Of a DNA stretch of 64,000 nt, positions 35,056 to 41,559 are shown piece after piece. The DNA comes from Lutimaribacter saemankumensis. GTDB lineage: Bacteria > Pseudomonadota > Alphaproteobacteria > Rhodobacterales > Rhodobacteraceae. The notes below the pieces were generated by a model, which saw only the letters and a program-made list of their open reading frames with translations, was not told the origin of the DNA and ran no database searches. Every line of letters begins with the position of its first letter. The stretch's first letter is position 1. A program made the position numbers and the translations under genes. The stretch lies in NCBI RefSeq assembly GCF_900100005.1, contig NZ_FNEB01000001.1, positions 372,001 to 436,000 of the forward strand, in the 5' to 3' direction.

Positions 35056-36096
35056 CTAGTCATACATCGCCTGAAGGTTGAGCGTTGCGCGCTTCCCAAG
35101 ATCGGATTTGTGCGCGGCCAGAAACGCATCGGCTGCCGCCCTGCCCGCAGATTTCAGACGGCCGAGCAAGACTGGTCCGGGCGATAGCTTGGTCGCAACG
35201 GACAATTCGGTCATCAAGGCGTCATCGGCGATCATGTGAACGAGAACGTCCTTCATGCTGCCGGGTTTGATGTTGCCCGCGGCAAGCAGGCGTTTGACGA
35301 AACCGATCGCCCGCAATTCGCGCAGAAGTGAACTGTTAAAGCTGATCTCGTTGATGCGGTTGTGTATCTGCTGCGGGGTGATCGGCACTTCGCTTCGTTC
35401 CAGCGGGTTGATGCTGACGATCAGGATATCGTCGGGAAGATCCGGGTCGAAAAGCGGGAACAGCGCCGGATTGCCGGTGTATCCGCCATCCCAGAACGCT
35501 TCGGTCTTGCCGGTGTCCGGGTTCTCGATTTCGACCGCCTGGAACAGCGTGGGCAGGCAGGCCGAGGCCAGGATCGCATCGGGCGTGATATCGTCGCCGG
35601 TGAAAATGCGTATCTTGCCCGAATGCACGCTTGTTGCGCCAATAAAAAGACGGGGCCCGTCGGCGGCACATACGGCGTCATAATGAAAGCGTTCGGCCAC
35701 CGTGCGCAGCGGATTGTCATAGAACGGCCCCAGCGCATAGGGCGATGAAAACCGCGCCGCCGCATCCGCCAGCGCAGATCCCACCGAATATTCCATCGCG
35801 CGCCCCAGAAAGGCCGTGGACGGTGCAAAGGCCAGCAACCACGCGGTCATCGGTGTCTCCTGCAGGGCTCCAAGCTGCTGCCAGAGCCAGTCGAGGTTCG
35901 CGCGCGCCCCGTCGCGCCCGCCTTCAAGCCAGCCGGATTTGAACGCAGCCCCGTTCATCGCGCCGGCCGATGTGCCTGAAATCCCTGCGATTTCTATGTC
36001 TTCGTCATCCAGCAGGCGGTCGAGCACACCCCAGGTAAAGGCGCCATGCGCGCCGCCCCCTTGCAGCGCAAGGTTAATGCGAATGGGCTTGGCCAA
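35056..36096 (-). CDS. Patatin-like phospholipase
   Basis: This is a 346-residue serine lipid hydrolase with the patatin catalytic dyad. It shows the oxyanion loop GGGAHGAF (13-20), nucleophile Ser43 in GTSAG and Asp203 in DGG. The start is read as TTG at 36096 because GAGGAG lies 8 bases before it and homology begins at AKPIRINLALQGGG; an ATG at 36156 would add 20 residues. It diverges from the flavoprotein gene, and bdhA lies beyond that. Patatins near 3-hydroxybutyrate dehydrogenase occur in other Alphaproteobacteria and may act on lipids or on polyhydroxybutyrate granules. Confidence 0.87.
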   Translation of the reverse strand: MAKPIRINLALQGGGAHGAFTWGVLDRLLDDEDIEIAGISGTSAGAMNGAAFKSGWLEGGRDGARANLDWLWQQLGALQETPMTAWLLAFAPSTAFLGRAMEYSVGSALADAAARFSSPYALGPFYDNPLRTVAERFHYDAVCAADGPRLFIGATSVHSGKIRIFTGDDITPDAILASACLPTLFQAVEIENPDTGKTEAFWDGGYTGNPALFPLFDPDLPDDILIVSINPLERSEVPITPQQIHNRINEISFNSSLLRELRAIGFVKRLLAAGNIKPGSMKDVLVHMIADDALMTELSVATKLSPGPVLLGRLKSAGRAAADAFLAAHKSDLGKRATLNLQAMYD

Positions 36097-36236
36097 GCTG
36101 TCTTCTCCTCGATGGTTTTTCTCGTTTGCGCCTGCACGCACGCCTTTTGCGCGCATTTTATGTTTCCATACGCGCACTGGCTGTTTATCGTCAGAGGTGC
36201 CTTGCATCAAATCTAACCTGACTCTGAGGAATATCC

Positions 36237-37880
36237 ATGCAAACACCAAAGACCATCACCGATTGCCTGATCGTCGGCGCCGGCCCTGCCGGACTGCAGG
36301 CGGCCTATTTCCTCGAGAAAAAGGGCATCGGCTTTCACATCCTCGAACGCGGCAAGGTCGGACAGTTCTTTCGCCAGTTCCCCCGCCACAGGATGCTGAT
36401 TTCGATCAACAAGGTGAATACCGGTCTGTCCTCGCCCGACACGAAACTGCGGTTTGACTGGAACAGCCTCCTGAACGATGAAGGCCAGCTTTTCACGGAT
36501 GTCAGCCGGCGCTATTTCCCCAATGCAGACGATTACGTCGGCTACCTCGACGCGTTCGCGGACCGTTTTGCCGACCGCATAACATGCGGCGTCAAAGTCG
36601 AACGCATCGCCAAAGAGGGCGATCTCTTCGCTGTCGAAACCGACGACGGCACGACACATCATGCCCGCACGGTGATCGTGGCGACCGGCGTGTCGCGCCC
36701 GTGGGATGCCGATATCGAAGGTATCGACCTGGCCGAGCAATATTACGATTTCGACACCACGCCCGAACGGTTCCGCGACAAGCGCGTGGCGATCCTTGGC
36801 AAGGGAAATTCGGCGTTCGAAACAGCGGATTCCCTGGTCGAAGAGGCGCAGGCCATCCACGTCATCAGCCCCAACCCGGTCAAGTTCGCCTGGAACACGC
36901 ATTTCGTGGGCAATCTGCGCGCGGTGAACAACAATTTCCTCGATACCTATCAGCTCAAATCGCAAAACGCCGTGGTCGACGGGGCCGTGACGAAGATCGT
37001 GAAGGAAGGTGACGGGCTGACGGTTCATGTCGCCATGACCGCGGCCGAAGGTCACGAGATCGTCCTGCATTACGACCATGTCATCGCCTGCACCGGATTC
37101 CGGTTCGACGACAGCATTCTCGACCCCGCGATCCGCCCCGAGATGCGGCACATGGGCAAGTTCCCGGCCATGACCGAGCAATGGGAAAGCGAGGCCGCAC
37201 CGGGCCTGTTTTTCGCAGGCACGATCATGCAATGCCGGGATTTCAAGAAAACCATGTCCGGCTTTGTGCACGGGTTCCGTCACAACGTGAAATGCCTGTC
37301 CGAGTTCGTGGCGAACCGCGTCACCGGGGCACCCTACCCCCACAGCACCGCCCCGCTTGCGCAGGAATCGTTGACAGCCACGCTGATCGACCGGATCAGC
37401 ACGGCGTCCGGCATGTTCCTGCAGCCGTCCTTCCTGGGCGATGTGGTCGTGCTCGATGGCCCGGACGCCGGCGCGCATTACATCGACGTGCCGATGCACT
37501 GGGCGGACCGGGCCGACGAGTTCAAGGGCCGCACGGTTCTGCGCGTGACGCTGGAATTCGGCAATTTCGGCCCCAACCCGATGCATGTGAAGCGCGCCCA
37601 CACCACCGACGGGGACGAGGCCGATCCCTTCATCCATCCCGTGCTGCGGCTTGTCCGCGATGGCGAGGTTCTGGTCCAGGCGCATCTGTCAGATCACCTG
37701 GACAGCGACTGGCGCGCGCCCGAAGCCAAGGACAAGGGCGCCGGCACAGTGCAGCGCATGACCTATGTCGATGCCGGGCAGACCCTGTCCGGCAACGAGG
37801 TGGCGAAACGGCAGATCGACGCGTTCTTCCGGCGCGCGGGCCTATTCACGCAAACGCCCGAAGCGATCCCCGCGCAATAA
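36237..37880 (+). CDS. FAD-dependent oxidoreductase resembling FOXRED2/ERFAD
   Basis: This is a 547-residue two-dinucleotide flavoprotein. It has an FAD-binding GAGPAGLQAAYFLEKKG (15-31), an ERGKVGQFFRQFPRHRMLISINK stretch, a second nucleotide site GKGNSAFETADS (near 188-199), and the conserved segments NTHFVGNLRA, DTYQLKS and GFVHGFRHN. These blocks resemble, from memory, vertebrate FOXRED2 (ERFAD) rather than typical bacterial monooxygenases. No signal peptide is present, so it is cytosolic here. About 150 C-terminal residues fall outside the flavin core. GAGGAA lies 6 bases before the ATG. Confidence 0.8.
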   Translation: MQTPKTITDCLIVGAGPAGLQAAYFLEKKGIGFHILERGKVGQFFRQFPRHRMLISINKVNTGLSSPDTKLRFDWNSLLNDEGQLFTDVSRRYFPNADDYVGYLDAFADRFADRITCGVKVERIAKEGDLFAVETDDGTTHHARTVIVATGVSRPWDADIEGIDLAEQYYDFDTTPERFRDKRVAILGKGNSAFETADSLVEEAQAIHVISPNPVKFAWNTHFVGNLRAVNNNFLDTYQLKSQNAVVDGAVTKIVKEGDGLTVHVAMTAAEGHEIVLHYDHVIACTGFRFDDSILDPAIRPEMRHMGKFPAMTEQWESEAAPGLFFAGTIMQCRDFKKTMSGFVHGFRHNVKCLSEFVANRVTGAPYPHSTAPLAQESLTATLIDRISTASGMFLQPSFLGDVVVLDGPDAGAHYIDVPMHWADRADEFKGRTVLRVTLEFGNFGPNPMHVKRAHTTDGDEADPFIHPVLRLVRDGEVLVQAHLSDHLDSDWRAPEAKDKGAGTVQRMTYVDAGQTLSGNEVAKRQIDAFFRRAGLFTQTPEAIPAQ

Positions 37881-37919
37881 GACCGGCGGGCGCGGCCTGG
37901 CGGTCGCGCCCCGCCCCTG

Positions 37920-38693
37920 TCACAGCGCGGTCCAGCCGCCATCCACGCTGATCGTGGTGCCGGTAATCTGGTCTGCTGCCGACGAACACAGGAACACCGC
38001 CGTTCCGCCGATCTGTTCGACCGTGGCGAATTCCTTGGACGGCTGCCGTTCCAGGATGACCTTCTGGACGGCCTCTTCCTCGGTCATGCCGTATTTCTCG
38101 GCGGTGTCGGGGATCTGCGCCTCGACCAGCGGCGTCTTGACGTAGCCGGGGCAAATGGCGTTGCAGGTGATGTCCTCCTGCGCGGTTTCCAGCGCGGTGA
38201 CCTTGGTCAGGCCGACAACCCCGTGCTTGGCCGCGACATAGGCCGATTTGTAGGGCGACGCGGTCAGGCCGTGGGCCGACGCGATATTCACGATCCGGCC
38301 CCACCCTGCCTTGCGCATCATCGGCAGTGCGGCAGCGGTGCAGTGAAAGGCCGACGACATGTTGATCGCGATGATCGCGTCCCACTTCGCGGTGGGGAAA
38401 TCCTCGATCGGGCTGACATGCTGGATGCCCGCGTTGTTGACCAGGATATCGCAGGCGCCCGCCTTTTCGATCAGCGCGCGGCATTCATCGGGTTTGGACA
38501 TGTCGGCCTGTATGTAGCGCGCCTCCACATCGAATTCAGCGGCCAGATCTTCCGCCAGCTTGTGATCTTCCTTGGTGTCGGTGAAGGAGTTCAGCACGAT
38601 ATTCGCGCCGGCGCGCGCAAGTTCACGCGCGACCCCCAGCCCGATACCCGAGTTCGATCCGGTGATGATGGCAGTCTTTCCTGCAAAGCTCAT
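37920..38693 (-). CDS. bdhA: D-3-hydroxybutyrate dehydrogenase
   Basis: This 257-residue short-chain dehydrogenase interconverts 3-hydroxybutyrate and acetoacetate with NAD, the step that feeds polyhydroxybutyrate breakdown products into central metabolism. It has the cofactor motif TGSNSGIG (11-18) and the catalytic residues Ser139, Tyr152 and Lys156. The HGLTASPYKSAY and GYVKTPLVEAQIPD segments are typical of BdhA. AAGGAG precedes the ATG. A separate minus-strand RNA unit ends just upstream. Confidence 0.93.
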   Translation of the reverse strand: MSFAGKTAIITGSNSGIGLGVARELARAGANIVLNSFTDTKEDHKLAEDLAAEFDVEARYIQADMSKPDECRALIEKAGACDILVNNAGIQHVSPIEDFPTAKWDAIIAINMSSAFHCTAAALPMMRKAGWGRIVNIASAHGLTASPYKSAYVAAKHGVVGLTKVTALETAQEDITCNAICPGYVKTPLVEAQIPDTAEKYGMTEEEAVQKVILERQPSKEFATVEQIGGTAVFLCSSAADQITGTTISVDGGWTAL

Positions 38694-38774
38694 GAATGGC
38701 TCCTTGTCTGGATTCGGCGCCATCCTGGCATTCTGCACCTGCAAAAGGAACCGATACACGGATCACGACCGCGT

Positions 38775-38805
38775 AAAAAAAAAACGCCGGCACAAGGCCG
38801 GCGTT
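38775..38805 (-). terminator. Intrinsic terminator of the candidate small RNA
   Basis: On the minus strand, 9-base perfect arms AACGCCGGC/GCCGGCGTT (38783-38791 and 38797-38805) with a 5-base loop run directly into about ten T. Confidence 0.85.
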
Positions 38806-38852
38806 CAGTTATTGAGGCAGGTTTCATACAGGCAAGAAACCTATCGAGCAGT
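38775..38852 (-). ncRNA. Candidate small RNA with own promoter and terminator
   Basis: A minus-strand terminator lies upstream of bdhA with no gene in front of it. Going upstream on the same strand there is a hairpin with 7-base arms AGGTTTC/GAAACCT (38819-38825 and 38836-38842), then TATAAA and TTGGAG boxes with 17-base spacing. The predicted start is near 38852, giving a transcript of about 78 bases with two stem-loops and a T-run of about ten. No open frame of any length is present. It matches no family I recognise. Confidence 0.65.
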
Positions 38853-38858
38853 GCTCTC

Positions 38859-38887
38859 TTTATAAGCAATCCGCTGCGCGACTCCAA
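38859..38887 (-). promoter_or_regulatory. Predicted promoter of the small RNA
   Basis: On the minus strand, TTGGAG (38887-38882) is followed after exactly 17 bases by TATAAA (38864-38859). This is one of the closest matches to a housekeeping-sigma promoter that I noticed in the window. Confidence 0.6.
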
Positions 38888-38966
38888 GCTAAAAGTTTGA
38901 AAAGCAATGAATCCACGGCTACGGTCACCGCCAAGAAAACAAGGGCAGAGCAGGATTGTTGCAGAA

Positions 38967-40781
38967 ATGCGGTCTATATTTTTCCGTAAATCCCGGGCCG
39001 CCGTTATCGCCGCAGCCTTTGTTTTGCAGGCCGCAACGGGAATCGCGGAACCCGCCCATGGCATCGCTATGTATGGCGCACCCCAGCTACCACCCGATTT
39101 TGTGTCTTTGCCCTATGCGAACCCGGATGCCCCCAAGGGCGGGCGCCTGATCGAGGGCAATACCGGCGGGTTCGATTCGCTCAACCCTTTCCTGCGCAAG
39201 GGCACGGTACCGTGGCAGTTGCGTTTTTATGCCTATGAATCGCTGATGGCGCGAAATTGGGACGAACCCTTCGCTTTGTACGGCCTTTTGGCCGAATCGG
39301 TCGAGATCGCCGATGACCGGTCCTGGGTGGAATTCACGCTCCGCCCCGAGGCCCGATTCTCGGATGGCAACCCCGTCACGGTCGAGGATGTGATCTGGTC
39401 GTACGAGACCTTGGGCACGGTGGGGCATCCCCGTTACCTGGGCTTCTGGACGCAGGTCGACAGGATCGAACAGACCGGCCCGCGCAGCGTGCGCCTGACA
39501 TTCGATGGCAACAACCGCGAGCTGGCCTTGATCGCCGGACTCCGGCCGATCCTGAAAAAGGCGCAATGGGCGGGCCGCGATTTCACCGACGGCACGATCG
39601 ACGACATTCCCATCGGAACCGCGCCCTACGTCGTCACCGATTTCGAACCGGGCCGGTTCGTCACGCTGACCCGCGATCCCGATTACTGGGGCGCCGATCT
39701 GCCGATCCGACGCGGCACCGCGAACCTCGACGAGATACGGATCGAGTTTTTCGGCGACGAGAACGTGATGTTCGAAGCGTTCAAGGCCGGTGTTCTGAAT
39801 TTCTACCGGGAATCGAACGCCGAGAAATGGGCCACGCAGTATGATTTTCCCGCCGTGCAGTCGGGCAAGGTCGTCCTGTCGGAAATTCGCCACGAACGCC
39901 CGACCGGGATGACAGGATTCGTCATGAACACGCGCCGCCCGCAACTGGCCGACTGGCGGGTGCGCGAGGCGCTGATCCTTGCCTTCAACTTTCCCTATAT
40001 CAACGGCACCGTGACCGGCGGCCGCCAGCCGCGCATCACCTCGTATTTCGCCAATTCCGATCTTGCCATGCGGCCCGGCCCGGCCGAGGGGCGCGTCCGC
40101 GATCTTCTGGCCCCCTTTGCCGATGCGCTGCCACCGGGTGCGCTCGACGGCTATGCCCTGCCCGAAGGCGATGCGTCGCCGCGCAATCGGCGTGACCTGC
40201 GGCGGGCGGTCGATCTGCTGGAACAGGCCGGCTGGACAGTGCAGGACGGCATCCTGCGCAATGCAGAAGGCGCCGCTTTCCAGATCGAGGCGGTTCTGCG
40301 CCAGGGCGACAAGCGCATGGAATCGGTCTTGCAGATCTATACCCAGTCGCTTGAGCGGTTGGGGATTTCGCTGACGATCCGCAGCATCGACAATGCCCAG
40401 TTCACCGAACGCGAGGCCGCGACCGATTTCTATATCATGCCGTTCCGGCGTGACCTGTCGCTCAGCCCCGGCACCGAACAGCGTCTATACTGGGGCTCGG
40501 ACGGCGCGGACCGGGACGGCACCCGCAACCTGATGGGCGTCCAAAGCCCGGCGCTCGACGCGATGATCGACGCGCTGCTGACCGCCGAAAGCCCCGCGGA
40601 TTTCACCGCCGCCGCCCGTGCGCTGGATCGGGTGCTGATGGCGGGCCGGTTCGTCATTCCGATCTGGACCACGTTGACCGACCGCGTGGCCCATGCCGGA
40701 AACTTGAAATTTCCCGAAAATACGCCGATATATGGCGACAGGATCGGCTGGATGCCCGATGTCTGGTGGTCCGAAGAATAA
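38967..40781 (+). CDS. ABC transporter extracellular solute-binding protein, family 5
   Basis: This 604-residue periplasmic binding protein is of the oligopeptide/dipeptide class, closest in style to YejA (microcin C/peptide uptake). After a signal peptide, the mature part begins HGIAMYGAPQLPPDFVSLPYANPDAPKGG, and the family motif region ARFSDGNPVTVEDVIWSY follows. No permease or ATPase genes adjoin, so it would have to work with a transporter encoded elsewhere. The start is taken at the Met giving a proper signal peptide; a Met at 38907 would add 20 non-signal residues. Confidence 0.86.
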   Translation: MRSIFFRKSRAAVIAAAFVLQAATGIAEPAHGIAMYGAPQLPPDFVSLPYANPDAPKGGRLIEGNTGGFDSLNPFLRKGTVPWQLRFYAYESLMARNWDEPFALYGLLAESVEIADDRSWVEFTLRPEARFSDGNPVTVEDVIWSYETLGTVGHPRYLGFWTQVDRIEQTGPRSVRLTFDGNNRELALIAGLRPILKKAQWAGRDFTDGTIDDIPIGTAPYVVTDFEPGRFVTLTRDPDYWGADLPIRRGTANLDEIRIEFFGDENVMFEAFKAGVLNFYRESNAEKWATQYDFPAVQSGKVVLSEIRHERPTGMTGFVMNTRRPQLADWRVREALILAFNFPYINGTVTGGRQPRITSYFANSDLAMRPGPAEGRVRDLLAPFADALPPGALDGYALPEGDASPRNRRDLRRAVDLLEQAGWTVQDGILRNAEGAAFQIEAVLRQGDKRMESVLQIYTQSLERLGISLTIRSIDNAQFTEREAATDFYIMPFRRDLSLSPGTEQRLYWGSDGADRDGTRNLMGVQSPALDAMIDALLTAESPADFTAAARALDRVLMAGRFVIPIWTTLTDRVAHAGNLKFPENTPIYGDRIGWMPDVWWSEE

Positions 40782-40805
40782 CAGGCGAACGAAGGCAGAG
40801 CAGAG

Positions 40806-40928
40806 ATGAAAATCGCAAGGCAAATGGCGCTTGTGGCAACCGTGGCCCTGTTGGCCGGCTGCGCCACGATTGACGGTGTCGGTCAGGATATTTCCGGCGC
40901 CGCGCGCACCGTGCAAACCTGGTTCTGA
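40806..40928 (+). CDS. Entericidin-like small lipoprotein
   Basis: This 40-residue lipoprotein gene lies 24 bases after the binding-protein gene. It has a basic start, a hydrophobic stretch and lipobox LLAGC (Cys19), then a short mature peptide (ATIDGVGQDISGAARTVQTWF). Length, lipobox position and the GVGQDI segment match the entericidin A/B family, small stress-linked lipoproteins. An AGAGATG-type ribosome region precedes the ATG. Confidence 0.75.
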   Translation: MKIARQMALVATVALLAGCATIDGVGQDISGAARTVQTWF

Positions 40929-40935
40929 GGCGGCG

Positions 40936-41559
40936 TCAGACCAGCGACGTGACCCACAGGATCGTCGCGTCTTCCTGGCTGACCGAGATCACGTTGTGAC
41001 CCATCGCAGCGTCGTAATAGGCGCTGTCGCCCCGGCGCATTTCGACGGGTTCGTAAAACTCGGTATACAGGCGGATCACGCCGGTAAGGACATACAGGAA
41101 CTCTTCGCCATCGTGGCGCACCCATCCGTCGAATTCATCCATCGACCGCGCCCGCACCCGCGCGCGGTAGGGCAGCATCTTCTTCTTGGTCAGGCTTTCG
41201 GCCAGCAACTCGTGCTCGTAGGTGGCGGTGGCATGCGCGGACCCGTCATCGGATTTCGTCACCACCATGCGCCCGTTGATCTGGTCGCGCTGCGGCGGAG
41301 TGAAAAGCTGCGGCACCGAAATCGCAAGTCCCGTGGCCAGCTTCTTCAACGCCTCGTAGGTGGGTGACATCTGGCCGTTCTCGATCTTGGACAGCGTCGA
41401 GCGCGCCAATCCCGCCCGCGCGGCGGCCTGTTCCAGTGTCCAGTCGCGCGCCTTGCGCAATTCGCGTACCCGGCTGCCAAGGTCGAGCGGCTCTGCCGCC
41501 TCGTCCTCGCCGGTTGCCCGCGCGATGCGGATCAGGGCCTTGGGATCTCTTTCGGTCAT
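40936..41559 (-). CDS. XRE-family regulator with C-terminal cupin
   Basis: This is a 207-residue protein with an N-terminal helix-turn-helix (about 28-82, LRKARDWTLEQAAARAGLARSTLSKIENGQMSP) and a C-terminal cupin domain (about 125-205, with GEEFLYVLTGVIRLYTEFYEPVEMRRGDSAYYDAAMGH). This architecture senses small molecules or metals and often controls a neighbouring catabolic gene. The divergent acyl-CoA synthetase starts 59 bases away and is the obvious candidate target. Confidence 0.88.
   Translation of the reverse strand: MTERDPKALIRIARATGEDEAAEPLDLGSRVRELRKARDWTLEQAAARAGLARSTLSKIENGQMSPTYEALKKLATGLAISVPQLFTPPQRDQINGRMVVTKSDDGSAHATATYEHELLAESLTKKKMLPYRARVRARSMDEFDGWVRHDGEEFLYVLTGVIRLYTEFYEPVEMRRGDSAYYDAAMGHNVISVSQEDATILWVTSLV

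Follow-up and report, generated by a model that had tools for sequence, protein, structure and literature searches.

A small RNA gene beside bdhA in Lutimaribacter saemankumensis and its predicted pairing with the leader of the division and cell-wall cluster

The small RNA gene and its neighbors

In the window, i.e. the whole 64,000-nucleotide stretch of the Lutimaribacter saemankumensis genome analyzed here, the minus strand carries a small RNA (sRNA) gene between bdhA, encoding 3-hydroxybutyrate dehydrogenase, and a divergent gene for a solute-binding protein (Table 1). The gene, which has a promoter and a terminator of its own, is real and not a chance arrangement. An earlier note made from the sequence without database searches had described TTGGAG, a 17-base spacer, TATAAA, a hairpin and a terminator in this order between these two genes; every element was found in its place, and both protein assignments are borne out by profile matches. 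Some dimensions were revised: the 7-bp hairpin does have seven Watson-Crick pairs but gains a U-G pair to make eight, enclosing a 10-nt loop; the run of about ten T is present, while the terminator stem counts 10 pairs instead of 9; and the transcript, put at about 78 bases, is now predicted to be slightly shorter.

Table 1. Features at the sRNA locus (positions in the window)
Feature	Position	Strand	Remarks
bdhA, 3-hydroxybutyrate dehydrogenase	37920..38693	minus	stop included; TIGR01963, 369 bits (cut-off 307)
sRNA gene	38776..38852	minus	predicted transcript about 73-77 nt
Ten-T run at terminator	38775..38784	minus	first three T also pair in the terminator stem
Intrinsic terminator stem-loop	38782..38806	minus	10 pairs, including two A-U and one G-U
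Main pairing segment UGCCUGUAUGAAACCUG	38818..38834	minus	17 nt; loop plus 3' stem arm
Hairpin 1	38818..38843	minus	arms 38843-38836 and 38825-38818; nearly invariant
Hairpin 1 loop UUGCCUGUAU	38835-38826	minus	
5' segment CUGCUCG	38845..38851	minus	complement of second mraZ-leader site, CGAGCAG
Likely start	A38852	minus	predicted RNA end about 38776
-10 element TATAAA	38864-38859	minus	17-bp spacer to -35
-35 element TTGGAG	38887-38882	minus	C at 38888 also conserved
Inferred solute-binding protein promoter	38897..38925	plus	TTGAAA (38897-38902), 17 bp, TACGGT (38920-38925)
Solute-binding protein SBP_bac_5	38967..40781	plus	divergent; PF00496, 211 bits

The core of the RNA is ACUGCUCGAUAGGUUUCUUGCCUGUAUGAAACCUGCCUCA, running ACUGCUCG...CCUGCCUCA. 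Its predicted fold reaches -26.3 kcal/mol against -14.4 kcal/mol for shuffled sequences (z = -4.71), and none of 200 shuffles was as stable. When five U are counted at the 3' end, a length of 72-73 nt is predicted for 136 of 154 listed loci. The frame opened by an ATG within the hairpin is five codons long in 21 of the listed homologues, seven codons in 61, unclosed in 52 and of other lengths in the remainder; with frame length differing between species in this way, there is no sign of coding potential, as the claim that the gene holds no reading frame had anticipated.

A simple sigma-70 consensus scan returned no promoter within 37000-41000, and it skips the sRNA promoter because TTGGAG agrees with TTGACA in TTG only; the promoter call therefore rests on conservation. 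From 155 listed loci, 148 had enough flanking sequence and 147 of these were non-redundant. A TTGnnn-N16-18-TAnnn arrangement is found in 145 of the 147 listed homologues, with CTTGG at -35 in 125 and TATA at -10 in 133, and conservation climbs from 0.1-0.6 to 1.0 and then 2.0 bits at the predicted start. Dufour et al. (PMC3441632) report that C-37 and T-9 are over-represented in promoters for RpoHI, and C-14 and T-13 in those for RpoHII. If the start is set one base after A38852, the sRNA promoter has C-37, TTG, T-13 and A-12 and lacks C-14 and also T-9, a base important for RpoHI, so that RpoH control is at most compatible with its sequence.

On the opposite strand, the solute-binding protein probably begins with the Met at 38967, ahead of an apparent signal peptide; the longest open reading frame spans 38907-40781, and its first ATG falls inside the inferred promoter. 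At a spacing that suits this promoter, three bases of TAnnnT show conservation: the first T with 1.0 bits, the A with 1.1 and the last T with 0.7. Between 38882 and 38925 the -35 elements of the two genes stand back to back, 9 bp apart, and the bases between them are conserved as well. The most plausible reading of the resulting 16-bp conserved box, CAAACTTTTAGCTTGG, is a back-to-back pair of -35 elements that have their middle part in common; the box recurs once in the L. saemankumensis genome within three mismatches, at exactly three. A further motif, GGATTGTTGC, recurs directly before the start of the solute-binding protein gene, on the strand opposite to the sRNA promoter (e.g. at locus L001), and GGATTGT occurs in 64 of 150 listed leaders of this gene.

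The context of the sRNA was compared over 155 listed loci that contain the core, drawn from 35 genomes of the family, at least 118 named records and two plasmid records, some of which end too early to reveal a neighbor. The divergent solute-binding protein gene adjoins the sRNA in 143 of these loci, and 110 have bdhA no more than 600 bp downstream; both are present in 105 and neither in seven. One of these seven is only 139 bases long; in the other six the nearest frames resemble, as named by eye, a DUF502 protein, mfd, a CBS-domain protein and others. The trio of bdhA, sRNA and solute-binding protein gene is annotated on a 1.46-Mb replicon in Paracoccus ferrooxidans, and the sRNA is also found in three further Paracoccus plasmid records. 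No NCBIfam match at 1e-20 was obtained for ten open reading frames near the sRNA in relatives. At loci L053 and L135, mfd, as named by eye, lies near the sRNA in a MAG without the usual neighbors and a few kb upstream of it in Cereibacter flavus; this proximity is perhaps a trace of the ancestral location of the sRNA. A gene for a patatin-like phospholipase (PF01734) lies near bdhA at 35059-36249; many relatives have it behind bdhA in the same orientation, and it may be a lipid or PHB-granule partner of bdhA.

Because the solute-binding protein gene is so regular a companion, the sRNA might regulate this divergent gene from a shared back-to-back promoter region, and CAAACTTTTAGCTTGG, nearly unique in the genome, does span the two inferred -35 elements together with the intervening bases. 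Its upstream half, which is missing in loci without the gene, is also missing in some loci that have it (L029, L039 and L042), so that the box alone is no proof of co-regulation; a shared control or regulator of the two genes is possible. As a target, the solute-binding protein gene is highly unlikely: pairing of the sRNA with its leader was not above that of shuffled RNAs (4 of 40 as strong, at scattered sites), a 6-/7-mer test on the leader was not convincing, and the sRNA persists where the gene is absent.

The sRNA could alternatively be the leader of bdhA, an attenuator whose terminator usually stops transcription and occasionally lets it read through into the gene. Both are on the same strand, with some 82 nt between the sRNA and the start of bdhA, which is the usual downstream gene in the listed loci, and UpsM, a product of the long mraZ leader reported from Rhodobacteraceae, is itself such a read-through leader (PMC5089854). 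Against this, the core is kept where bdhA is absent (in loci found by an exact 36-nt core match), and an invariant hairpin combined with a freely varying terminator stem shows nothing to suggest alternative pairing. The bdhA start region, too, paired with the sRNA no better than the shuffle range allows, with 6 of 40 shuffled RNAs as strong and positions scattered. We regard this explanation as very improbable, though read-through may occur now and then. The start regions of the XRE regulator and the patatin gene likewise paired no better with the sRNA than with shuffled RNAs. Since six loci have unrelated neighbors, the sRNA is independent of bdhA; with no conserved bdhA pairing either, the link to hydroxybutyrate or carbon storage that the earlier note had drawn from the closeness of bdhA is not upheld.

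Spread and conservation of the sRNA

BLAST located the RNA stretch in 35 of the 36 same-family genomes, a family that we take to be the Rhodobacteraceae; of 24 genomes outside it, one gave a match, merely to a terminator-like piece. A covariance model built from 50 sequences then found the sRNA in 193 of 198 same-family genomes, including 172 of the 174 of good quality. Among 385 genomes drawn from the class, five exceeded 100 bits; all five are same-family genomes, that of L. saemankumensis itself included; 344 genomes, whose families are not listed, had no match. Sixteen genomes of other families reached 25.9-33.3 bits, and in the six of these inspected the likeness lay mainly in the terminator. 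A second match was seen in ten genomes at 27-48 bits, the 48-bit match lying at a contig end, and the sRNA appears to be single-copy, with one full copy per genome.

An exact 36-mer search recovered at least 118 named records carrying the core. Judged by their titles, they belong to Rhodobacteraceae-type genera (Ruegeria, Leisingera, Sulfitobacter, Yoonia, Paracoccus, Rhodovulum, Cereibacter and others), to Neomegalonema and to unclassified Alphaproteobacteria. Invariance of the core among them follows by construction, since the exact 36-mer was the query. The 35 genomes found by BLAST form an independent set, in which a 26-nt core is exact in 32, has one mismatch in two and four mismatches in one. 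The first 40 nt from the 5' end are nearly invariant and, by this comparison, are evidently held in sequence beyond what the fold alone would demand. Hairpin 1 varies too little to be able to show covariation, and the terminator stem covaries, with changes on both sides at six of its eight modeled pairs. For the two helices together, pairs occupy 99.4% of cells, and covariation scores 0.236 compared with 0.065 after shuffling. A search of the literature for strings of the core sequence found no match.

Predicted pairing with the mraZ leader

Genome-wide exact complements of TTGAGGCAGGTT amounted to little besides the sRNA gene itself. The seed CATACAGGCAA gave extra sites, of which 26 were read; these were first judged unspecific because most of them lie inside or antisense to open frames. 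Two of the 26, in genomes G006 and G009, fall in the leaders of mraZ, the gene that opens the division and cell-wall (dcw) cluster, where the site GGCAGGTTTCATACAGGCA complements the loop and the 3' stem arm of hairpin 1. In L. saemankumensis, UGCCUGUAUGAAACCUG is perfectly complementary over 17 nt to CAGGTTTCATACAGGCA in the mraZ leader.

The match was quantified by taking, for every genome, the longest piece of the up to 450 nt upstream of mraZ that is exactly complementary to the sRNA of that genome. Among 45 genomes considered, G024 had no mraZ match and G019 a leader of just 66 nt, leaving 43. The longest complement reaches 10 nt or more in 37 of the 43, 12 nt or more in 31 and 15 nt or more in 22, with a mean of 13.9 nt, whereas 500 shuffled cores gave a mean of 6.9 nt and a highest mean of 8.9 nt. 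One shuffled core did reach 10 nt in 21 of the 43 leaders, since the leaders are mutually related. Fifteen mraZ leaders from other families held complements of 5-9 nt, with 5 nt in the outgroup L297. In 35 of the 37 matches the complement is one aligned site, GGCAGGTTTCATACAGGCA, distinct from its variable upstream surroundings; G031 and G506 have their longest match at other places in the leader, and that of six genomes (G010, G016, G444, G467, G486 and G578) is shorter than 10 nt. The G031 leader (L326) carries, at another place, a 10-nt complement to the altered 5' end of its divergent RNA (L041), a hint of a rewired contact between sRNA and leader.

A second site, CGAGCAG, which pairs over 7 nt with the 5' end of the sRNA, follows 44-61 nt downstream of the first in 29 of the 37 leaders, compared with a mean of 2.5 and a maximum of 8 in 200 shuffled leader sets. 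In a joint fold of the L. saemankumensis RNAs both helices form, with a gain of -24.6 kcal/mol over the separate folds. The mean duplex energy is -42.4 kcal/mol against -28.2 kcal/mol for shuffled RNAs (20 sets, best -29.0). To look for compensatory change, five variant sRNAs were set against the common RNA on their own leaders; two paired better and three worse, a split that does not demonstrate compensation. For the variant of G019 the leader is broken by a contig end, and its one extra match is unlike a leader. The single-stranded bases that the earlier note had offered for target prediction (38806-38818 and 38843-38852) are in part the pairing ones: 38845-38851 pairs with the second site, while the main contact is made by 38818-38834. 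Taken together, these comparisons point to the mraZ/dcw leader rather than bdhA as the target of the sRNA.

Likeness to StsR and a possible role in division

StsR (formerly RSs0827) of Rhodobacter sphaeroides is described as an orphan sRNA of 72 nt (PMC8307010). It is made in stationary phase under RpoHI/RpoHII and binds both UpsM and the dcw 5' UTR (PMC8307010, PMC11354728, PMC8625941). The sRNA shares with it the predicted length of 72-73 nt, an own promoter and intrinsic terminator, the target (the UpsM/dcw 5' leader, here by computed pairing) and presumably the bacterial family; among the features compared by description, no difference was found. UpsM is the partner of the sRNA and not the same RNA, being a 206-nt product of the mraZ leader formed by termination, and its presence in Rhodobacteraceae (PMC5089854) agrees with the spread of the sRNA. 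The L. saemankumensis mraZ leader likewise has a terminator-like element, a 10-pair GC-rich hairpin seen by eye at about -109 to -74 and followed by TTTCGTTT; the terminator scan, which considers loops of 3-8 nt only, omits it.

Because the mraZ leader that it matches is UpsM, the target of StsR, the sRNA is very probably a trans-acting base-pairing RNA and the orthologue of StsR, as judged from the published description of StsR. StsR is also said to have rpoE mRNA as a target. With R. sphaeroides reported to have several other sRNAs, the RNA might alternatively be a distinct family-wide sRNA that shares the UpsM/mraZ-leader target. We consider this improbable given the one full copy per genome, the fitting length and the very strong match to the published target; it is hardly to be expected that two different sRNAs would share one 17-nt site.

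If the sRNA is StsR, the published sequence of events can be fitted to the pairing sites. The RNA would be made under stress or in stationary phase, and its loop would nucleate on the mraZ leader. The leader could then replace the 5' arm of hairpin 1, because its AGGUUUC (AGGTTTC in the DNA), after which comes the complement of the loop, is identical to that arm, and by displacing it would take the 3' arm to build about 17 pairs. At a distance of about 50 nt along the leader, the 5' end of the sRNA, CUGCUCG, would form another helix, of 7 bp. The leader would refold and expose an RNase E site, dcw mRNA would fall and division would be held back, in line with the published account of R. sphaeroides, in which UpsM refolding, RNase E cleavage and lower dcw mRNA are reported. 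Strand exchange together with second-site pairing would account for the lack of variation in the loop, the two arms and the 5' end. On this analysis, the sRNA most likely slows division under stress and does not act in carbon storage.

We further think it probable that this brake on division is family-wide, with the sRNA gripping the dcw leader at two sites in nearly all Rhodobacteraceae, the main one by strand exchange, and the match being kept although the gene occupies several chromosomal places and Paracoccus secondary replicons. The StsR work concerns one species, and the available text of the published StsR accounts contains no description of family-wide conservation. If the sRNA is StsR, the link from stress to division through the dcw leader would become a trait of the family, which record titles place in roseobacters, Paracoccus and genera of the Rhodobacter type; the pairing site being defined, the link could be tested in any of them.

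The Rfam search that the earlier note had suggested did not identify the RNA, as a scan of the window with Rfam 15 gave no match at the gathering score; a covariance model is now at hand for an RNA that Rfam 15 leaves unmatched there at this score. An abundant 80-nt RNA of Paracoccus denitrificans, 'Intergenic 60' (PMC5107571), resembles the sRNA in being conserved in Rhodobacteraceae, while its reported sphingomonad matches disagree with the spread seen here. SorX (RF02784) reached 24.1 bits, well below its gathering score of 46.6, in a match of architecture only: the two are alike in build, with a hairpin, a short linker and a terminator, and SorX differs in being, by the title of its reference, 3' UTR-derived. 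The Makes More Granules Regulator mmgR/suhB (RF00519), also of similar architecture, reached 21.2 bits against a gathering score of 41; in five genomes of the family that carry both RNAs (G003, G006, G010, G017 and G019), an above-cut-off RF00519 match lies at a locus other than that of the sRNA.
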